From an uncultured Porphyromonadaceae bacterium (GTDB taxonomy: Bacteria; Bacteroidota; Bacteroidia; Bacteroidales; Muribaculaceae): a DNA stretch of 55,520 nt. Position numbers and translations under genes: made by a program. Each line of letters begins with the position of its first letter. The stretch's first letter is position 1. Below are positions 18,848 through 30,651 of the stretch, piece after piece. Location: the NCBI GenBank assembly GCA_947567425.1, contig CANOLV010000018.1, positions 1 through 55,520 of the forward strand. The letters are read 5' to 3'. The notes below the pieces were generated by a model. That model saw only the letters and a list, made by a program, of their open reading frames with translations. It had not been told where the DNA came from and ran no database searches.

Positions 18848-21436
18848 CTATTTGTCGGCGATCACGGGCCAGCCATCCTGCCAATGGATCTCACGCAGGA
18901 AAAGCTTGCTCGCACCGCGGCGGCTCTTGTCATAGCCGTGGGCCGCTATATACCACTTGCCGTTGAATTCATAGACACTGCAATGCCCTACGCCGCTATA
19001 CTTGTCGCTCTCGCCCACAAGCACAGTACCGCCGGTAGAGGCCATGTCCTTACCATCCTTGTCAAGATATGGTCCGGCGACATCCTTGCTTCGTCCGACA
19101 ACGGTCTTGTAGTTACTGCTCAAGCCCTTGCAACAGTAGTCGTAGCTCACAAACAGATAGTAGTATCCGTCATGGTAAGTGATGAACGGAGCTTCTATGG
19201 CATTCGTATTGGCGGTAGGTTGCAAGTGGGCCACAGACCACGGATTGCGGCGGCGCGCCACAGTCTTAGGCTCGCCTACAGGTGTCTTCATATCCTTCTT
19301 AAGCTGCACGAGCTGAATGCCGTCCCAGAACGATCCGAACGTCATCCACGGATTGCCCTTCTTGTCGATGATCACGTTAGGGTCGATCGCGTTCCAGTCA
19401 TTGACGCCGGGAGCCGACATTATGACCATGCCGAGATCCTCCCACTTATAGTCGGGCGATTCGGGATTAAGGGTCTTGTTAGTGGCCACTCCGATAGCCG
19501 ATATATTCTTATAGAATGTCGAGCAACTGTAGTAGAGATACCACTTGTCACCCACTTTAATGATGTCGGGAGCCCATGTGTGGCCCTGATAGCCCGGCAC
19601 AGGAGTCTTGGGCCATTCGGGAATCGGATCAAGCGGAGCCTTCTCCGGCTTCCAGTTAACCAGATCCTTCGACGACATCAATCCGATGCCGAAACCGGTG
19701 GTAAACATATAATATGTGCCATCCTCGTATGCCATGACGGGATCATGCACATCCGGATTGGTTGAATCAAACTCATGGCGCATCATGCGTCTGTCGCGAG
19801 GCTTCGACAGCGTGCGGTTGACAAACTCCATTATGCCGGCCGTGGCCTTTTCATGGTGGGCATAGTTGGAAAAACCATGGTCGCCGCCGGGAATCACCAA
19901 AGTCTGCACTTTATCATATTTAGAAGCACCCTTGTCTACACCTCCGGCCACAATCATATCGCGGTCACCATAGACGATGAACACGTCGCCCTTGTAATTT
20001 CCGATAGTGCCCATGACATCCATGCCGTCGATCGTTTCATAATACCGGCGTCCGAGCTTCATGCCCATAAGCTCCTGAGGCTTGCCGCCGTCGGCATCAA
20101 ACCGCTTCAACATCATCGGAGCAGTGTCCGGTATTGTAAGAGCCGGATACACGAGTATCAGCGACTTGAACATGTCAGGATTGGCCGCGGCCGTCATAGC
20201 AGCCACGAGTCCGCCCTGGCTGCAACCCAGGAGAGCCACACGGTCGGCATCGACAAAATCCCACGACTTTACCGCACGGGCTATGTCCTCGACATTCTCC
20301 TGTTCGGTCAATATGGTCATTTCCGTGGTCACTCCGTCGCTCTTACTGTGGTTGCCGCCTCCGCAGAAATCAAAGATGAAACTTGCCACACCCTGCATGG
20401 CCAAAGTTTCGGCGTATGCCTGAGGTTCAAGATGTGTGCCGTTATAGCCATGAGCCATTATGACCATCGGCTTTTTGGCTTCCTCAGTGTTCGGGATATA
20501 GACTTTTCCCCAGAGGTTCTTCCCGTCGCGCATTTTCAAATTCATCTCCTTAACGGTAAACGGATCGTTTGAATCAGGGAAGTTCTTCGCCTTCATAGTG
20601 TAGTCGGGGAATTCACGCAGACGATTGCGGAGAAATACGTCGATGTTTGAACGTTGGTCCTTAAACTGCCAGCTCAGCCATGCACGCACCATCGGAGAAA
20701 ATGATCCTCCGTAAGGCTCATGGAACGTACCGCCATGACCCACACGGACCTGATTGGCAAATGCCACAGGGACATTGTCAATCCGCTCATAGTCGAGTTC
20801 GGCGTTACGGTAGGCTATATCTCCCTCTCCGCCGATCAGATATAGAATTGGGCCGTGCAGATTCTTCAAGGATTCCTTGCTCGCGCCCGCCATAGTAATA
20901 TCGCCCATTCCGGAATTAATCATAAGGTATGTCTTGACTCGTGGGTCGGCGCAATTGGCCAATGTCTGTGCTCCGCCACAGCTCTGGCCTCCCAATGCCA
21001 CATACTCAAGATCGACGTTCTTATAGTAGTCGCTCGACGGAATGCCATTCTGCACTTCCGCCCAATCTATAGCCTTTATCATATCTGAATCGGGCGACTT
21101 CCTCAACGGACGATCATTGATGCTGTCCTGCATTTCGCCCAAAGCCACAACGAGGTAGCCGTATGACGCCACATCATTGAGCAATTTTTCATGTGGCAAT
21201 GATGTATCGTTGCAGGCACCGTTGGCGAATACAAACAAGGGCAACGGACCCTCATGCACCACTGCTTCCTTGATGTCGGCAGGACGGTAAACCACGAATC
21301 CTGGCAAAGTGGGATCAGATATAGCCTCGGCCTTATACGGACCGCTGCCCCCCTCGTCGATAATTTTTTTCGTAGGTGCCGCAGTCAATGCAAGAGCCGA
21401 CGCGGCCAACGAGATTGATAAGATAAACTGTTTCAT
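18848..21436 (-). CDS. Three-module protein: alpha/beta hydrolase, feruloyl-esterase-like hydrolase, GH43 arabinanase
   Basis: This exported protein of 862 residues has a signal peptide (MKQFILSISLAASALALTAA). Module 1 (about 20-290) is an alpha/beta hydrolase with nucleophile elbow GGQSCGG (S152). Module 2 (about 300-545) is a second hydrolase with MAHGYNGTHLEPQA, FDFCGGGNHSKSDG and elbow GCSQGG (S406), the pattern of cinnamoyl/feruloyl esterases such as Est1E/LJ0536. Module 3 (about 550-862) is GH43, most like the endo-1,5-alpha-L-arabinanase subfamily, with D565 (VHDPVM), D685 (NAIDPNV), E748 (AIEAPF), the CCKG loop and GHCSVY. All three catalytic sites look intact. It is last of a unit with GH51, a carboxylesterase and DUF3237. 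Together these suggest attack on feruloylated arabinan (inference). Confidence 0.88.
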   Translation of the reverse strand: MKQFILSISLAASALALTAAPTKKIIDEGGSGPYKAEAISDPTLPGFVVYRPADIKEAVVHEGPLPLFVFANGACNDTSLPHEKLLNDVASYGYLVVALGEMQDSINDRPLRKSPDSDMIKAIDWAEVQNGIPSSDYYKNVDLEYVALGGQSCGGAQTLANCADPRVKTYLMINSGMGDITMAGASKESLKNLHGPILYLIGGEGDIAYRNAELDYERIDNVPVAFANQVRVGHGGTFHEPYGGSFSPMVRAWLSWQFKDQRSNIDVFLRNRLREFPDYTMKAKNFPDSNDPFTVKEMNLKMRDGKNLWGKVYIPNTEEAKKPMVIMAHGYNGTHLEPQAYAETLAMQGVASFIFDFCGGGNHSKSDGVTTEMTILTEQENVEDIARAVKSWDFVDADRVALLGCSQGGLVAAMTAAANPDMFKSLILVYPALTIPDTAPMMLKRFDADGGKPQELMGMKLGRRYYETIDGMDVMGTIGNYKGDVFIVYGDRDMIVAGGVDKGASKYDKVQTLVIPGGDHGFSNYAHHEKATAGIMEFVNRTLSKPRDRRMMRHEFDSTNPDVHDPVMAYEDGTYYMFTTGFGIGLMSSKDLVNWKPEKAPLDPIPEWPKTPVPGYQGHTWAPDIIKVGDKWYLYYSCSTFYKNISAIGVATNKTLNPESPDYKWEDLGMVIMSAPGVNDWNAIDPNVIIDKKGNPWMTFGSFWDGIQLVQLKKDMKTPVGEPKTVARRRNPWSVAHLQPTANTNAIEAPFITYHDGYYYLFVSYDYCCKGLSSNYKTVVGRSKDVAGPYLDKDGKDMASTGGTVLVGESDKYSGVGHCSVYEFNGKWYIAAHGYDKSRRGASKLFLREIHWQDGWPVIADK

Positions 21437-21463: not shown

Positions 21464-21967
21464 TTAATGTCTTGAATCGCACACTCTCCAGACTTTAAGG
21501 ATGATGCTTCCGTCAGAAAACCCGGCAGGATGGCAAACGTAAAGAGCATCGTTAAGCCATGAGTATTTGCTGTCGGATGGAGCCTCAAATCTTGGAGCCG
21601 CATAAAAATACGTGCCGGAACCATTGTCGACAATGAGTCCGCGGTTACGTACGTGGATATTGATTCCATCATCAGTCTGTATGCAGTATACCGCCTCCAG
21701 TTCAGTTCGTCCCGCGGAATCGTCGACGAGCTGATAATCGGCTCCTCCGGGCAACACTATGCCCGCGATGTCCGGTCCTGAAAACGTCCCGCCGGTAATC
21801 GGAATGACCACTCGCCTGCCATGGGACGTAGGCCCTACATCTACGGGCGTCCCTATCGCGACTTTAAGTTCAAGCACATACTCCAACTCAGGCGCATCGG
21901 CCGAGGCGGCCGCAGTCAGGCAAGTCAATATTGACAATACGGCAATGATGAAATTTTTCAGCCACAT
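21464..21967 (-). CDS. Secreted DUF3237 protein
   Basis: A signal peptide (MWLKNFIIAVLSILTCLTAAASA) precedes a DUF3237 domain: ELEYVLELKVAIGTPVDVGPTSHGRRVVIPITGGTFSGPDIAG, then GGADYQLV and LEAVYCIQTDDG, ending in YVCHPAGF. It has 167 residues, the usual domain size plus a signal. The function is unknown; the small beta-barrel fold has been seen next to esterase genes. The gene lies 27 bp before the three-module esterase-GH43 gene and 8 bp after the carboxylesterase, so all are probably co-transcribed and act in the periplasm. Confidence 0.85.
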   Translation of the reverse strand: MWLKNFIIAVLSILTCLTAAASADAPELEYVLELKVAIGTPVDVGPTSHGRRVVIPITGGTFSGPDIAGIVLPGGADYQLVDDSAGRTELEAVYCIQTDDGINIHVRNRGLIVDNGSGTYFYAAPRFEAPSDSKYSWLNDALYVCHPAGFSDGSIILKVWRVCDSRH

Positions 21968-21975
21968 ACTTTACA

Positions 21976-23430
21976 TTATTTTTTGCGAAGATAGCTTTTA
22001 TTTTCGAAAATCATCGTAGGTTCACTGACCGAATTATACGCTTCCCATTTGGGTAATTCCTTCGTATTTGGATTTCCGGTCTTGATAAATGCTATCCAAG
22101 CGGAACTCATCTTGTCAGCAAGTTTGTAGGCATCTTCAGTGGCACCGGTCATCTCCGGCTGCAGGTCGATATTGTTAAACATGAACGGTAGTTCCATGCC
22201 GTGGCATGCACCAAGGGTGTTTCCCGCCGGCTTCCAGTTGAACATGTAGAGATATACATCGGCTGTGCCTTGACCGGCCTTCATTTTCGCCTGATTTATG
22301 GCTCCGTCGCGGAACATCTTATCTTCCTTCCCTCCGACAAAATCGAACTCATTGAAATTCCATCCGATAAGCATGGGGACATTCTTGCTCACCTCCGGTG
22401 CTCCGTTCTCAAAACCGGGAGCCACGACATACTTTCCGTCAAGCACCGGACCCATCATGCCTCCCGACGGACGCTTGCCCTGCGACATCAGTGTCTTGTT
22501 GACAATGCGTGTGCTCTTATTGACCGCATCGACAAGTCTTTCGTAAGGAACAGCATTAAGGCCTTCTACATCGTCCACACTCAAGCCAAGCTCGTCAAGG
22601 AGCGCCTGGGCATAAAGTTTGCCATATTCATTTACATTCTGACGTGCAAACGAGCCACTCTGCACTATCGCCTTGTGGAACAAACCTTCGGCAGATGGCA
22701 TCATCATTACAGTGGACACTTTTCCTCCGCCGCCGGACTGGCCGCCGATAGTCACATTCCCCGGGTCGCCGCCGAAAGCCTCTATATTATTGTGGACCCA
22801 TTCCAATGACTTTACGAGATCCTGCATTCCGAGATTGGCGGATTCGCTGTAACGTCCGCCCAGACCTGACATGTCGAAATAGCCCGGCACGTTCAATCGG
22901 TGGTTGACAGTGACCACTACTATGTCGCCCTTTTCAGCCAAAGCACGGCCCTCGTAGCACGGAAGGTCGTGACCGGAGCCGGTGGCAAAACCGCCACCAT
23001 GGAACCATACGAACACCGGACGCTTCAGGCCATCATTGATACCCTTGGACCACACATTGAGCACCAGACTATTATATTCATCCATCGGCTCAAGATTAAA
23101 CTGGAATCCGAAGTCATTGTCGCTTTGCGGATTGCCCTTGAATTTCAGATTCTGATTCTGCATAGCCTTCGGACCATAGTTACGGCATTTCAGAATCCCT
23201 TCGTGAGGCAATGGTTTCTGCGGAGGCATAAACCGTTCAGCCCTTGCATAAGGTATGCCCTTGAATGTATAGATATCACCATCCCGATAGCCTTGTATGC
23301 TACCGGCTTCCGTAGCGACCACTGTGCTTTCATCAGAAATCACCGGTCCGACTTCCCGCGCAATGACAGTAACGCAAGATGCCATCATCATGCATGAGGA
23401 AAAAATCACGGTCTTAATAAATTTACTCAT
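21976..23430 (-). CDS. Type-B carboxylesterase, secreted
   Basis: A signal peptide (MSKFIKTVIFSSCMMMASCVTVIA) is followed by the COesterase fold: GSIQGYRDGDIYTFKGIPYARAERF, oxyanion-hole VWFHGGGFATG, nucleophile GGQSGGGG (S232), VQSGSFA, a possible acid in NFNEFDF, and catalytic His in ACHGMELPFMF. The product is 484 residues with all expected motifs. ATG 23430 is chosen over 23466 because it starts a clean signal peptide. The family hydrolyses carboxylic esters broadly; here it probably removes acetyl or phenolic esters from arabinose-containing oligosaccharides. It follows the GH51 gene by 77 bp containing a hairpin. Confidence 0.9.
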   Translation of the reverse strand: MSKFIKTVIFSSCMMMASCVTVIAREVGPVISDESTVVATEAGSIQGYRDGDIYTFKGIPYARAERFMPPQKPLPHEGILKCRNYGPKAMQNQNLKFKGNPQSDNDFGFQFNLEPMDEYNSLVLNVWSKGINDGLKRPVFVWFHGGGFATGSGHDLPCYEGRALAEKGDIVVVTVNHRLNVPGYFDMSGLGGRYSESANLGMQDLVKSLEWVHNNIEAFGGDPGNVTIGGQSGGGGKVSTVMMMPSAEGLFHKAIVQSGSFARQNVNEYGKLYAQALLDELGLSVDDVEGLNAVPYERLVDAVNKSTRIVNKTLMSQGKRPSGGMMGPVLDGKYVVAPGFENGAPEVSKNVPMLIGWNFNEFDFVGGKEDKMFRDGAINQAKMKAGQGTADVYLYMFNWKPAGNTLGACHGMELPFMFNNIDLQPEMTGATEDAYKLADKMSSAWIAFIKTGNPNTKELPKWEAYNSVSEPTMIFENKSYLRKK

Positions 23431-23461
23431 AAAAACATTATTATTTAAGGTTGTGGAGATA

Positions 23462-23496
23462 GACACCGGCTACCGGCAAATCCAGCAACCGATGTC
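23462..23496 (-). other. Intercistronic hairpin between GH51 and carboxylesterase genes
   Basis: GACACCGG (23462-23469) and CCGATGTC (23489-23496) form an 8-bp stem with one G-U pair on the minus-strand RNA, loop 19 nt. There is no T-run, so an RNA-stability or processing site is more likely than a terminator. Confidence 0.35.
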
Positions 23497-23507
23497 TCGA
23501 ATATTGC

Positions 23508-26024
23508 TTACTTGCCGGCTTTTACACGCAGGATAGTAAATGAATTTGGCTTGAACACATAGTTGAATTTACTCCCGAAACCATCGTATTCCACATCTAC
23601 CGGAACAATCTTCTCGGGATTATCCATTGAATTTTCATCGGCCTTGCTTTCAGAATGAAGAGTTATTACCCGGCCTATAGGCTCTACCGACGGAGCATTC
23701 AAGGATATCGAGGCAGCATAATCCGTATCCTTGGCATTGATCACCTTAATGATAATCTCACGGGCATCTTCATCATATCCCGCAACCATATAGTGGCCGG
23801 AGGGAGCACTGGCAATCTGCTCAAACACCTTATTGCCGTCGAGATATACGCTGACCATATTGTCGGATCCAAAATCAACTTTCACATGATACCACTTATT
23901 GCCTTCCATCTGCAGACTTCCCCCGCCGGGATTATGGTCGACATTGGCCTCTCCGTTTGTAGCGCGGCTCATAGTTATGACCTTGCGGTCACCCACTATC
24001 TGAGGCAGATTGATGGTAAAGTAATCATTGACTCCCTTATTATATCCAAAAACGAGCGACGGTGAAGTCAATCTCTTTACAGGCGCTCTGTTGACATCAA
24101 ATCTGGATGCCGGCATCTCCTTTTCAACCAACTGAATGTCAAATTCCACAGAACCACCGTTAACGTCGACTCCTTCAAGCATGTTCAGCACAACCGGTCC
24201 ACCCCAACGACGCGAATTCTGAAGTTCGAGCGACTTCAGATCGGCAACTTCAGCGGTAGACACGGTCTGTCCGGCGACATTTTTAACGGAGATATTACGT
24301 ACCATACCGGGGACGTCCGCGCCGGTAAATCCGATAGCACCCTTTGTCAGATTGAGCTTAGGTTCGGTGGAAGCAATCTCCACGTTATAGTCGGGGCGAT
24401 TTTGAGCATACATCTGCTGCACATAATATGATGCCCGCCCCATGGTCTTTTCATTATTTATCCAGATCAGGTTTGTCGGCCAGTCGCGCCTGTTGTTGTT
24501 TTCAAACAGAGGTGCGTATGATGCCATCTTCACCAGATCCGAATTACGCTCCACTCCTGTCAGGAATGCGGCTTCGGCAAGCGCGGCATTCATGTTTGAT
24601 TCTGAAATGACAGCATATTCACCGATATAAATGTCATATTTACCCCGCTCCATATTATCGAACAGATGGTCATTTTCGTAGAAGAACCCTGAATTGACAT
24701 ACCAGTGCGGATCAATCATATCGGCCTTCTCAAGTTTCTCGCGGCTTGGCGAGAGCTGCAATGTAGATATGAACGTGATGTCTGGATATTTTTCCTTCAA
24801 TATACGATAAAAATAATTGTAGCGCTCAGCATAGTGGTCGCCGACCTGTTCATTTCCAAGTTCGACATACTTCAGATTGAACGGTTCGGGATGACCGGCT
24901 TCGGCACGCAAGGCTCCCCAAGGATTATCAACCGGTGCGGTGGCATAATCTATGGCATCGATGATGTCCTGAAGAAACGGCTCATAGTCCTCCGACCAGT
25001 CGCCGTTGCGCACCGAACATGAAAGTCCCACATTGGCAACAAACATGCCTGCCGCACCGATATCCTCGCAAAATTGCAAAAACTCATGGTAACCGAATCC
25101 CCACGAACAATGGTAATTCCAAAGTATCCACTCGCTCCTTCTTTTCATCGGATCACCGATGGTCTCCTTCCATTTTGCACGGTTTTCCAAAGTTGCGCCC
25201 TCAGCAATACATCCTCCGGGCCAACGTACAAAACCAGGTTTAAGATCGGCTATCTTCTGTGCCACATCCGGACGAAGTCCGTTCTTGTGGCCTTTGAAAG
25301 TATTCTGCGGGAATAACGACACGTAGTCCACATAAACGACTCCAGGATTGTCAAACACAAGCTGAAGTACAGATTTATAATCGGTAGACTTAGGAGTCAG
25401 TACCGCGGTAAACTCCTGCCATTTGTCGGCCTTCCCCACCTTAAAAGTCTCCTGTGCCAATACTTTTCCTTTCTCTGAGACTATCTTTGCCGTCACAGAA
25501 CCGGTATAGTCCACCGGATTAATATAGAACCGCAAGTCGTAATTATCCTTTCCGATAATTCTCATGCCCCAATATCCTTCATTTTCAAGAACCACATTCT
25601 TGGAATTCATATCCAGACGCAACGCATTGGGCGTAGCCGGATCAAGCTGATTCTCTGAAGTGACATCAAACACGGCATCACCCGACACAGTCCATCCGTC
25701 CATCTTAAGAGAGTCCATGTCCCACCTGATTTTCCAATCACGATAACCTCCATGCTCGTAATTCAAGCTATGGGGAGCCACCGCATAACCATCCCTATAA
25801 GTCATGCCTGACGGAATCACATGCTCTTCAAAATTTCGGTTTCGCACCAGCTCGGCATAAATTCCACCGTCGCCGGCATGATTGATCTCCTCAAAGAATA
25901 CACCGTACAGACTGCCGTCCACAGGATTGCCCTTCTTGCTGACATCCACATTAATCTCCTGTGCGGATACTCCCGCACAAAGCGACATGAATGCGACGAT
26001 ACTGATCATTTTTAATTTGCACAT
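23508..26024 (-). CDS. GH51 alpha-L-arabinofuranosidase, exported
   Basis: This enzyme hydrolyses terminal alpha-L-arabinofuranosyl residues. Signal peptide: MCKLKMISIVAFMSLCAGVSAQ. The domain order is an N-terminal beta region (SLYGVFFEEINHAGDGGIYAELVRNRNFE), a carbohydrate-binding-like insertion (about 100-245), then the TIM barrel with FVRWPGGCIAEG, acid/base KYVELGNEQ (E392) and nucleophile YIGEYAV (E469). A C-terminal beta domain follows, into which a LamG-like segment is inserted (WYHVKVDFGSDNMVSVYLDGNKV). With 838 residues it is longer than plain cytosolic GH51 but normal for exported Bacteroidales forms. ATG 26024 was chosen because upstream codons lie in the promoter. It is first of a unit with two esterase genes and a GH43, divergent from a regulator. 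Confidence 0.93.
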   Translation of the reverse strand: MCKLKMISIVAFMSLCAGVSAQEINVDVSKKGNPVDGSLYGVFFEEINHAGDGGIYAELVRNRNFEEHVIPSGMTYRDGYAVAPHSLNYEHGGYRDWKIRWDMDSLKMDGWTVSGDAVFDVTSENQLDPATPNALRLDMNSKNVVLENEGYWGMRIIGKDNYDLRFYINPVDYTGSVTAKIVSEKGKVLAQETFKVGKADKWQEFTAVLTPKSTDYKSVLQLVFDNPGVVYVDYVSLFPQNTFKGHKNGLRPDVAQKIADLKPGFVRWPGGCIAEGATLENRAKWKETIGDPMKRRSEWILWNYHCSWGFGYHEFLQFCEDIGAAGMFVANVGLSCSVRNGDWSEDYEPFLQDIIDAIDYATAPVDNPWGALRAEAGHPEPFNLKYVELGNEQVGDHYAERYNYFYRILKEKYPDITFISTLQLSPSREKLEKADMIDPHWYVNSGFFYENDHLFDNMERGKYDIYIGEYAVISESNMNAALAEAAFLTGVERNSDLVKMASYAPLFENNNRRDWPTNLIWINNEKTMGRASYYVQQMYAQNRPDYNVEIASTEPKLNLTKGAIGFTGADVPGMVRNISVKNVAGQTVSTAEVADLKSLELQNSRRWGGPVVLNMLEGVDVNGGSVEFDIQLVEKEMPASRFDVNRAPVKRLTSPSLVFGYNKGVNDYFTINLPQIVGDRKVITMSRATNGEANVDHNPGGGSLQMEGNKWYHVKVDFGSDNMVSVYLDGNKVFEQIASAPSGHYMVAGYDEDAREIIIKVINAKDTDYAASISLNAPSVEPIGRVITLHSESKADENSMDNPEKIVPVDVEYDGFGSKFNYVFKPNSFTILRVKAGK

Positions 26025-26054: not shown

Positions 26055-26062
26055 CAAAATTA
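26055..26062 (-). promoter_or_regulatory. -7 box of the GH51 operon
   Basis: TAATTTTG on the minus strand fits TAnnTTTG, about 30 bp before ATG 26024. The palindrome 26077-26088 lies 14 bp upstream, a good position for a regulator. Confidence 0.55.
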
Positions 26063-26076
26063 TAATGGACAAGCCA

Positions 26077-26088
26077 CAGATTAATCTG
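26077..26088. promoter_or_regulatory. 12-bp perfect palindrome between divergent promoters
   Basis: CAGATTAATCTG is a perfect palindrome midway between the GH51 -7 box (26055-26062, minus) and the regulator -7 box (26120-26127, plus). It is a candidate operator for the divergent AraC-type regulator or another factor. Confidence 0.45.
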
Positions 26089-26119
26089 CTGTTTGTCTAA
26101 TTATATCGGTCAAATGTAT

Positions 26120-26127
26120 TATTTTTG
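26120..26127 (+). promoter_or_regulatory. -7 box of the dwarf HTCS-type regulator
   Basis: TATTTTTG fits TAnnTTTG, 24 bp before ATG 26152. TTTG at 26092-26095 lies 24 bp upstream, slightly too far for a standard -33. Confidence 0.5.
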
Positions 26128-26151: not shown

Positions 26152-27687
26152 ATGAAGTCATTGACTGTATATCTTATGGTGTTCATTTTAGTAATAATTT
26201 GTCCACCACGTGTCAGATCGGATAATTTTACTCCGCACACAAAAATTATAGGTATATGGGCCTATGCTGACGAACTTACCGATTCAACACATCTGACATA
26301 TAAGCAGAACAACCTCAGATTCTTTTGCGGTACTGAAGAGGATTTGCCCTCTGACTCATTGGAATACAGATTTTGGCTTAAAGGGCACGACAATGACTGG
26401 GTGACTGCATTCAAAGGCGGGTGGTACTTTTACACAGACCTTTCGCCTGGCAACTATGAATTCATGGCACAAAGCCGTCTAAACGAAGGGACATGGGGGC
26501 CGGTCAGTATCCATGAGTTTTCCATAGAGTCGCCGTGGTGGTTAACATGGCAGGCTATAACTCTGTATATTCTGTCGGGAACCGGAATAATCATATATAT
26601 ATACTACCTGATACGCTCGCGCATCAGAATCCACAATCAGCTTATAGTGGAACGAAGCAACCAACGCTTTAAAACCGACTTTATCATACATGCCGGCAGG
26701 GAATTCCGCATACCGCTCACAATAATCTTATCGACCATCGAAAAGATGAGGGAAGGAATGCCTACATACAGACCCACCAGAACCGACATACAGCATCTAC
26801 GCAACAGCAGCCGCATGTTGATGCAGATGGTAGAGCAACTTGTAGACTTCAACAAAGAGGAGCAGGACATACCCTACACAAGCAAGGGCGACGTAATTGA
26901 AATGGCCGACATACCGATCAATAAGGATACTACCGTAATGATAATCGAGCCTAACAGGCAACTTGCTGACGTAATCAGACGGGATATTCTCAGATTTATG
27001 AAAGCCGAATTCGCGGAAGGGAATAATAGCGATATCGTCGAAAAAGTGACACACAGCAGACCCGACGCGGTCATACTGGACACCGAATTGCCGGAAGCCA
27101 ACGCATACGAAATTTTGAGCGAGATAAAGAAAAATCCCGACACGGGAGGAATACCCATAATTCTGGTCTCGAATTTTGACGACAGCAGAAGCCTGCTGAG
27201 GGCCATCCGCTCGGAAGCCGACGACTATATATCCAAACCATTCAACTGCAAAGTACTTACTGCCCTGGTAATGAAAAAGATCCGCACACACAGGGAATTG
27301 AACGCAGTATATCCTCGCTCCCAGACTGCCTATACGGCAAGACCGCTCATCGAACGCCGTGGCGACAAACTGTTCATAGACCGTCTCGACAAAGCGGTAT
27401 TTGAGAATCTCGCCGACCCCGAATTCGACGTAAATGCACTCGCTTCCGCCATGAACATGAGCAGAAGCCAGCTCTACAACAAGATTAAGGAACTCAAAGG
27501 CCTTGCACCCGTGGAATATATCAGGGAAATCAGACTGAACAAAGCGTCGGAACTGCTTAGAGAGTACAGGACATCCATAAAAGAGATCCGGGCTATGGTA
27601 GGTATGCCCGACCCTACAAATTTCAACCGCCGCTTCAAGGAGAAGTTCACGGTATCACCGACAGACTATCGCCAAAGTCCAATTTAA
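26152..27687 (+). CDS. Dwarf, degenerate hybrid two-component-type regulator (Y_Y_Y - TM - HisKA remnant - REC - AraC)
   Basis: The layout is a signal/TM start, a single Y_Y_Y domain (about 30-128; EYRFWLKGHDNDWV, YTDLSPGNYEFMAQSR), a TM helix at about 131-154, a short HisKA-like helix pair (about 172-235), a receiver domain (about 260-375) and an AraC helix-turn-helix (about 415-511; FDVNALASAMNMSRSQLYNKIKELKG). Full HTCS proteins are about 1300-1400 residues; this has 511 and lacks both the beta-propeller sensor repeats and the HATPase domain. The H-box reads GREFRIPL, with Arg183 in the place of the phosphorylated His of SHEFRTPL. The receiver keeps Asp310 (VILDTELPE), a Ser in LVS and Lys362 (SKPF), but one acidic residue of the N-terminal pair is Pro (IIEPN). 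It probably works as a membrane-bound one-component regulator or by phosphate from another kinase. It is divergent from the GH51 operon, its likely target. Confidence 0.85.
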   Translation: MKSLTVYLMVFILVIICPPRVRSDNFTPHTKIIGIWAYADELTDSTHLTYKQNNLRFFCGTEEDLPSDSLEYRFWLKGHDNDWVTAFKGGWYFYTDLSPGNYEFMAQSRLNEGTWGPVSIHEFSIESPWWLTWQAITLYILSGTGIIIYIYYLIRSRIRIHNQLIVERSNQRFKTDFIIHAGREFRIPLTIILSTIEKMREGMPTYRPTRTDIQHLRNSSRMLMQMVEQLVDFNKEEQDIPYTSKGDVIEMADIPINKDTTVMIIEPNRQLADVIRRDILRFMKAEFAEGNNSDIVEKVTHSRPDAVILDTELPEANAYEILSEIKKNPDTGGIPIILVSNFDDSRSLLRAIRSEADDYISKPFNCKVLTALVMKKIRTHRELNAVYPRSQTAYTARPLIERRGDKLFIDRLDKAVFENLADPEFDVNALASAMNMSRSQLYNKIKELKGLAPVEYIREIRLNKASELLREYRTSIKEIRAMVGMPDPTNFNRRFKEKFTVSPTDYRQSPI

Positions 27688-29247: not shown

Positions 29248-30651
29248 TTAATCATTGTTTGTTTTAGTAAGCTCACGTTGAGTCTTGATAATGTTGATTC
29301 GGTTCCATACCACAAGTGCCATGGTGCCGAGCGTCAAAACGGCCACTCCCACATACTTAAGATTTTGGCAACACTGGAATATAATCCACGCCAAAGGACT
29401 TCCGGCAAAGTCAAGACTTCCACCTTCAAAACCCTCAGGAATAGCCACTGCGGCATCGCCAGTATTGGCATATACATCGCGTGCGGCCAATGTGAACCAT
29501 GATGCAAGCGTAGTCACCATATATAGAGACAGCACCATCATCACAAGACCTACTATAAAGCTCTTAAGCACATTGCCCTTAGTATAAGGCAATACGAGGG
29601 GAAACACATAGAACATACCTGCCAAAGAAGCTAAGGGCAAAAACTGGTTGCCGGGAAGAGCCACAGCCAACAGCAAAGTGACCGGAATAAGCAGAAGCGA
29701 CACCACCAAAGTAGTGGGATGACCGATCACCAAAGCCGGACTCATTCCGATAGAAAGACCCTCGGCTCCCTTAAACTTACGGGCTATCAGACTGCGGGTG
29801 GAATCGGATATCGGTTTCAATCCTTCGATAAAGAGCACCGTTATACGGGGAATCAGCTCCATAACCGCACCCATTTTTATGCCCAGGCCGAGTATGTAAG
29901 GAATCTTGTCAACCATCTCTTCACCCGTGCGGCAGGTCAGACATCCGATGACAATACCTACTATTACACCTAAAAAGAGCGGTTCGCCGAGCACTCCGAA
30001 CTTTTTCTTCATACCTTCAGCATCGATCTCAAGCTTGTCAAATCCGGGAATTTTATCCAGAATCCAATTGATGGCCCATGCAAACGGGGCAAATCCGGCG
30101 CAGAATGGCTGCGGGATAGATATGCCCTCCATGCCTTCATAAAAACCTTGGAACTTCTTTGCCGTTATGTCGGCAAGCACCAGAGTGACAATATAGCAGA
30201 TGACCGCGGCAAAGAATCCCCACAGAATGGACCCGCTTGCAAAATAGACCACGGCACCGATAAATGCAAAATGCCAATAATTCCAAAGGTCAATATTAAC
30301 GGTCCTGGTGGTCTTGGTAAGAAGCATCAGGATATTGACACCGAGACATACAGGTATGATAAATGCTCCGACAGCAGTGTTGTAGGCAACAGCGGCGGCC
30401 GCCGGCCATCCCATGTCAAACACGTGCAATTGAAGATCATATATGCCCACCACGCTGTCAAGCGCAGGGCCGAGACTTGAAGTAAGCAAAGCGGTCACGA
30501 TGGAAAGACCTACGAAACCCACACCGACTTTTAGTCCGCTCTTCAGGGCATTACCGAACCTGATACCTATGCATACACCCAATATGGTGAAGATAATCGG
30601 CATCATCACGGCCGCACCAAGCCCGATTATATACTTAAATACTGCTTCCAT
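29248..30651 (-). CDS. Orphan PTS galactitol-type EIIC (GatC family) permease
   Basis: This integral membrane protein of 467 residues has about ten hydrophobic segments and strong GatC-type patterns: MEAVFKYIIGLGAAVMMPIIFTILGVCIGIRFGNALKSGLKVGVGFVGLS near the start, LLTKTTRTVNIDLWNYWHF, and GHPTTLVVSLLLIP. Family members move a polyol or sugar and need EIIA, EIIB, HPr and EI for phosphorylation. None of these is encoded in this window, and Bacteroidetes generally lack the PTS phosphorelay. It probably acts as a facilitator or ion-coupled carrier. Its position between a DUF4861 gene (1 bp gap) and kduI (3 bp gap) points to a 4-deoxy uronate-derived sugar as substrate (inference). Confidence 0.85.
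   Translation of the reverse strand: MEAVFKYIIGLGAAVMMPIIFTILGVCIGIRFGNALKSGLKVGVGFVGLSIVTALLTSSLGPALDSVVGIYDLQLHVFDMGWPAAAAVAYNTAVGAFIIPVCLGVNILMLLTKTTRTVNIDLWNYWHFAFIGAVVYFASGSILWGFFAAVICYIVTLVLADITAKKFQGFYEGMEGISIPQPFCAGFAPFAWAINWILDKIPGFDKLEIDAEGMKKKFGVLGEPLFLGVIVGIVIGCLTCRTGEEMVDKIPYILGLGIKMGAVMELIPRITVLFIEGLKPISDSTRSLIARKFKGAEGLSIGMSPALVIGHPTTLVVSLLLIPVTLLLAVALPGNQFLPLASLAGMFYVFPLVLPYTKGNVLKSFIVGLVMMVLSLYMVTTLASWFTLAARDVYANTGDAAVAIPEGFEGGSLDFAGSPLAWIIFQCCQNLKYVGVAVLTLGTMALVVWNRINIIKTQRELTKTNND

Follow-up and report, generated by a model that had tools for sequence, protein, structure and literature searches.

The regulator analyzed here is encoded at 26152..27687 (plus strand) of the window, the whole 55,520-nucleotide stretch of DNA that was analyzed, as a single intact frame of 511 aa. 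On the evidence of its ORF, its Pfam matches and two orthologues (L033 and L034), it is a kinase-less, HTCS-derived transmembrane regulator. A GH51-type alpha-L-arabinofuranosidase gene (23508..26024, minus strand) lies divergently from it across an intergenic space of 127 bp, with its start codon at 26024 (ATG; the ORF called mechanically extends to 26072). Further genes on that strand were assigned through Pfam to the carboxylesterase family (21976..23466), to DUF3237 (21464..21967) and to an esterase-GH43 fusion (18848..21436). The terms "arabinan" and "GH51 operon", used in the first-pass annotation of this DNA, are putative labels taken from the enzyme families only. On the other side of the regulator a galactitol-type PTS EIIC gene (29248-30651, minus strand; PF03611; TIGR00827 at 396.6 bits, below the cut-off of 542.2) sits between KduI/IolB-family and BT3233-family genes, and no EIIA or EIIB was found among the window ORFs scanned.

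Domain layout and receiver chemistry

The protein begins with a predicted signal peptide (about aa 1-23, 26152..26220, by hydropathy and inspection), followed by a Y_Y_Y domain (aa 67-125, 26350..26526; PF07495, E 3e-12) and a TM helix (about aa 135-154, 26554..26613), hydropathy exceeding 1.6 solely in windows starting at residues 1-4 and 135-136. Beyond the helix are a HisKA/DHp remnant (aa 175-238, 26674..26865), recognized by alignment and by a Pfam score of 21.6 bits (below the cut-off of 26.9), a receiver domain (aa 263-372, 26938..27267; PF00072 Response_reg, E 3e-14) that keeps D310 (27079-27081) and K362 (27235-27237), and an AraC-type DNA-binding domain, HTH_18 (aa 430-508, 27439..27675; PF12833, E 2.5e-19), all on the plus strand. 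Neither HATPase_c nor the propeller family Reg_prop gave a match in the regulator (Pfam, E 0.01), and alignment places Arg183 (26698-26700) at the position of the H-box His. The first-pass annotation had read the protein in this way, as 511 residues with one Y_Y_Y domain, one TM helix, a receiver with D310 and K362, an AraC domain and Arg183 at the H-box, and with the beta-propellers and HATPase domain gone. Its picture of kinase loss holds for the catalytic ATPase domain and the phospho-His, but the DHp dimerization helices are still recognizable.

Position comparisons were made in an alignment with 69 other receiver-AraC sequences (70 rows). The distance from the H-box to the receiver is 63 aa in the regulator; among the 58 of 70 rows where the script located an H-box, it is 58-71 aa in seven kinase-less rows (regulator included) and 225-266 aa in the other 51. 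Over the receiver and AraC domains the top match among solved chains was 12aw, named as a hybrid two-component system protein (E 7e-27). The Y_Y_Y stretch matched HTCS sensor 3v9f at its C-terminal end (E 9e-9); a match to 4a2l was weak (E 0.004). A single-sequence structure prediction had a mean pLDDT of 36.6 and a pTM of 0.23, and no conclusion was drawn from it.

The receiver retains D310, S340 and K362 of the phosphorylation set, but its pocket is altered. At the position of the acidic D/E-D pair of HTCS receivers lies E266-P267 (26947..26952), so the receiver of the first-pass annotation stands in its D310 and K362 but not as an unaltered domain. The second residue of the pair is the site that we take, from its role in CheY, to bind Mg; it is Pro in the regulator and in L033 and Ala in L034. 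Of the 57 rows outside the kinase-less group that have a residue there, 55 have Asp; a 58th row has a gap. The rows without it, L044 and L047, carry Ala at this site and Asn at the H-box, and their kinases look degenerate; in L044, the one of the two that was scanned, HATPase scored 19.4 bits (cut-off 26.4). The kinase region of both proteins (HTCS-like, from G330 and G443, respectively) has the usual length but looks dead.

The H-box Arg, D310, S340 and K362 are invariant in the window regulator, L033 and L034, as the first-pass annotation had asked of Arg183 and D310. As D310 and K362 are invariant in all three, phosphate transfer from another HTCS is possible, but unlikely. In the three family pairs the N half of the receiver, which holds the Mg pocket, shows identities of 25, 25 and 23%, and the alpha4-beta5-alpha5 half shows 68, 64 and 68%. 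Among HTCS pairs that are intact and similar in overall identity the halves differ by 14.5 points on average, and a difference of at least 35 points was seen in 8 of 878 such pairs, which are not independent of one another.

The REC-DBD lock is also changed. In the work of Gao, Wu and Stock (2024, PMC11253607), as excerpted, the S/CH of the S/CHIP motif packs on the DNA-binding domain in HTCSs. At the aligned position the regulator has GGIP (332-335, 27145..27156), the lock pair being GG here, AD in L033 and NE in L034; the lock partners D405 and K444 are kept, and the complete S/CHIP-DK lock is absent. The same excerpts report that fragments of BT4124 and BT4663 bind DNA without phosphorylation once CH is changed to AG or AD, and L033 carries naturally the very AD pair that those authors made in the laboratory. 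Outside the kinase-less and degenerate groups S/CHIP was found in 44 of 56 rows and His at its second position in 49 of 56. The remaining seven of the 56 lack the lock His, several of them beside an intact-looking kinase, and hence loss of the lock alone is no proof of phosphate independence.

Orthologues, neighbours and promoter

Orthologues of the regulator were found in two other genera of the same family: L033 in G238 (48% identical, a 499-aa protein) and L034 in G087 (45% identical). L034 is 389 aa at a contig end, with 125 C-terminal aa on another contig, the end of which overlaps the first by 55 identical bases. A clear orthologue was seen in three of 397 family genomes, namely the window's own genome, G238 and G087 (best three candidates per genome), and the other 16 matching genomes gave weaker HTCS-like matches; the genome samples drawn for the family searches partly overlap. 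None of 13 other species of the window's genus had the gene at E 1e-60, and no orthologue was found outside the family among 393 order genomes (best three candidates per genome scored). Among the 12 loci returned from the genome contigs no close relative of the regulator appeared, the best segments being 25-40% identical.

At the G238 locus the divergent neighbours are conserved: the GH51, carboxylesterase and esterase-GH43 genes are 72, 78 and 75% identical to those of the window, and DUF3237 had no match there. The regulator, at 48% against 72-78% for these enzymes, has diverged more rapidly than the genes beside it. Between the orthologues, identity is 52 and 52% in the Y_Y_Y domain and 56 and 42% in the DHp helices. 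At the G087 locus just two matches remain, one to the final 198 aa of GH51, which is reduced there to its C-terminal part, and one to the esterase half of the esterase-GH43 fusion. G003 likewise carries the esterase half only, the matches at both loci (L038 in G087, L109 in G003) spanning that half and ending there.

Within the intergenic space three-locus comparison revealed a conserved promoter block (26092..26127, plus strand; TTTGT-N16-WWTGTATTANNTTTG), a candidate operator built as a 21-bp direct repeat. Its self-similarity peaks at a 21-bp offset (17 of 27; next best 14), and 21 bp is the average period of predicted HTCS sites given in the excerpted text of PMC3878776. The block lies at the equivalent place in G238 and G087. 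It was found nowhere else among 113 loci (the five matching loci being three places: the window, G238 and G087), and since the pattern was drawn from those three, the absences alone count as a test. The end of the block is formed by the regulator's own TAnnTTTG box (26120-26127, plus strand), and a second such box (26055..26062, minus strand) faces GH51 at 37, 38 and 37 bp from the block in the three loci, with TTCG for TTTG in G087. TAnnTTTG we take to be the Bacteroides -7 consensus. A gapless 15+15 inverted repeat, 80% complementary (26068-26097), overlaps the first half of the block and by eye was not visible as such in the orthologue loci.

A search of the whole genome gave one exact block match plus four with two mismatches, as against two for the reversed control, and on these counts a genome-wide regulon was not seen. 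These counts suggest a local regulator with one predicted divergent target. Nor does GH51 always need the regulator: G208 and G110 carry GH51 relatives (71-75% identical), and the stretches fetched from these genomes gave no match to the regulator. The esterase-GH43 gene occurs in seven further genomes (69-81% identical; best two candidates per genome scored), and in their stretches of 8.8-19 kb there was no regulator, GH51 or carboxylesterase match at E 1e-6.

Kinase loss in other HTCS-like proteins

Several other proteins of the 70-row set also lack HATPase. L035 and L036 (full genes of 1185 and 1186 aa, in L039 and L040) are HTCS-like with propellers present, the H-box His kept and the receiver Asp changed to Gly. 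L041 is HTCS-like with propellers, and L043 (412 aa) has no Pfam sensor domain. Four loci of one genus (L060, L064, L068 and L071) have a periplasmic binding protein sensor and open frames of 739-748 aa, and L074 has the same kind of sensor in an 853-aa frame. The Pfam scan covered L039, L040, L041, L043, L064 and L074, and not L060, L068 and L071. The four loci keep the H-box His, the receiver D-D, D, T and K and the S/CHIP lock, and from these residues we infer that they could still take phosphate from elsewhere. The lock His is kept in these other kinase-less proteins, unlike the window family.

On a maximum-likelihood tree of the 70 rows the kinase-less label required five changes, four of which are forced by well-supported branches (the bootstrap was unsettled, at 0.987). 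Kinase loss thus recurred, HTCS-like proteins without HATPase having arisen at least four times in the sample. The 70 rows omit the duplicate loci L008, L009, L010, L013 and L015 and loci with a match covering fewer than 240 query positions. The 12 kinase-less rows among the 70 are no frequency, as the queries themselves were kinase-less, and with the best two, three or five candidates per genome scored such proteins may be under-counted. Loss of the Mg-binding Asp was seen in 7 of 12 kinase-less rows versus 2 of 57 others, but across independent pairs, in a sample too small for this correlation, its association with kinase loss was not significant (median p 0.5; p 0.25 with L044 and L047 counted as kinase-less).

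Two further proteins gave no HisKA, HATPase or receiver match. L011, in the window's own genome (G000:C9), has the order Reg_prop-Y_Y_Y-AraC and, judged by these domains, is a further step of HTCS reduction. L073 (G417) joins a periplasmic-binding-protein sensor to AraC in a 554-aa frame, and its sensor is 64% identical to that of the kinase-less L064.

Proposed signaling without phosphate and known systems

We favor, with a confidence somewhat above even, the reading that the regulator is a functional transmembrane HTCS descendant that works without phosphorylation and acts on its own divergent promoter. HATPase, the H-box His, the Mg-binding Asp and the canonical lock have been lost, and the Y_Y_Y domain, DHp helices, alpha4-beta5-alpha5 face, AraC domain and promoter have been conserved, a pattern that argues for phosphate independence. 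The Y_Y_Y domain and DHp helices would hold the dimer, the geometry of which would shift with a periplasmic ligand or partner, and the receiver would serve as a passive spacer with a conserved dimer face. The unlocked AraC domains could then occupy the 21-bp direct repeat, activate the GH51 side, whose -7 box lies at a distance of 37 bp, and cover the -7 box of the regulator itself. Counted against this reading are the invariance of D310 and K362 in all three family members, the missing HTCS sensor propellers, the GH51 relatives of G208 and G110 that have no adjoining regulator and, from the excerpts of PMC11253607, the finding that AG and AD variants of BT4663 still gain from phosphorylation.

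As the propellers are missing, the Y_Y_Y domain would itself have to bind a ligand or partner; otherwise the protein would be signal-blind. In the latter case a constitutive, membrane-anchored dimer would sit on the promoter and set its own level and basal expression of the GH51 genes, which would fit the lost lock pair, the single exact genomic site and the overlap of the block with the regulator's -7 box. We consider this unlikely, in that the Y_Y_Y domain is conserved on par with the other domains (52 and 52%), which exceeds the needs of an anchor. The first-pass annotation had offered dimerization alone, phosphate from another HTCS, or a dominant-negative partnership. Of these, dimerization alone is favored and phosphate from another HTCS is weakened by Arg183, the lost Mg-binding Asp and the diverged pocket half. 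The genome does have six other REC-AraC places with open frames of about 1290-1470 aa, and D310, S340 and K362 are invariant, yet all three family members have Arg in place of the H-box His and lack the Mg-binding Asp; together with the poorly conserved pocket half this makes an orphan receiver phosphorylated at D310 by another HTCS of the cell distinctly unlikely.

Conserved DHp helices (56 and 42%) would also allow pairing with a full HTCS as a heterodimer partner or dominant-negative form. We regard this as very unlikely, given the regulator's own conserved divergent promoter and neighbours, with no HTCS gene recognized alongside in the window ORFs scanned. Hardest to credit is a decay product of a full HTCS. 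Lost catalytic residues and the faster change of the protein than of its enzyme neighbours would be expected of decay, but the frame is intact, its boundaries and promoter are shared with two orthologues from other genera, and with the divergent GH51 gene starting 127 bp away there is no room for a lost 5' part. Recent decay, too, is unlikely, because the orthologues keep the architecture, the Arg, Asp310, Lys362 and the divergent promoter towards the GH51 gene. The search for the same domain order without HATPase that the first-pass annotation proposed returned two orthologues in other genera that share it, and decay, which a full HTCS in close strains was to reveal, is left unsupported in genomes sampled at the species level and above.

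More generally, HTCSs in this order may repeatedly have shed the kinase to become phosphate-free transmembrane regulators, of which the window family would be the most reduced receiver-bearing Y_Y_Y form seen here, one member having naturally reached the lock-breaking AD pair; we hold this tentatively, a little short of an even chance. In HTCS models it is phosphorylation that sets the DNA-binding domain free. In this family the sensor domain, dimerization helices, receiver and AraC domain are in place and the chemistry is not, which makes it testable whether dimer geometry suffices to carry the signal and whether proteins retain the REC-DBD lock only if there is phosphate to open it. The persistence of the regulator as an intact gene despite kinase loss suggests that switches of this type are able to work phosphate-free. 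At 511 aa it may offer a compact scaffold for glycan sensors, and HTCS counts based on receiver-AraC matches can include kinase-less proteins.

We found no description of HTCSs without HATPase in the open-access literature, a scope that leaves most subscription papers and all preprints outside, and the excerpts of PMC3404733, PMC8534201, PMC13037399, PMC8002723 and PMC4395418 contain nothing on kinase-less HTCSs. According to the excerpted PMC3243724, two propellers precede Y_Y_Y in known HTCS sensors and "most" HTCSs have all cytoplasmic domains, and PMC3878776, in the part available, states that all HTCSs identified in B. thetaiotaomicron carry the kinase domain. Like the Bacteroides HTCSs BT4663, BT4124 and BT0366, the regulator has a periplasmic Y_Y_Y domain, TM helix, DHp, receiver and AraC domain in one chain, and its gene likewise lies beside glycan enzymes. 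Unlike them, it has no two-propeller sensor and no HATPase_c, has Arg for the phospho-accepting His, has lost the Mg-binding Asp, and carries GGIP rather than S/CHIP.

The regulator fits the definition of hybrid TTRs given in PMC10269533 (a TM helix, a DNA-binding domain and one or more two-component core domains), but that definition, as excerpted, lumps intact with kinase-less proteins and does not single out the latter. With aspartate-less receivers (PMC4395418, in the excerpts) it shares a receiver kept with an altered pocket and a dimer face; however, its phospho-acceptor D310 is present, and among its relatives L035 and L036 alone, with Asp changed to Gly, fit the name. Closest in idea is BT4236, which has Gln at the H-box and the lock CSIP, and for which the authors of PMC11253607 suggest a phosphorylation-independent mode; an HTCS operating without phosphate is therefore an idea already in print. 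Compared by description, BT4236 resembles the regulator in its lost phospho-His and off-consensus lock, but it is counted among the HTCSs, and of its changes the excerpted paper mentions no more than those in the His and the lock.
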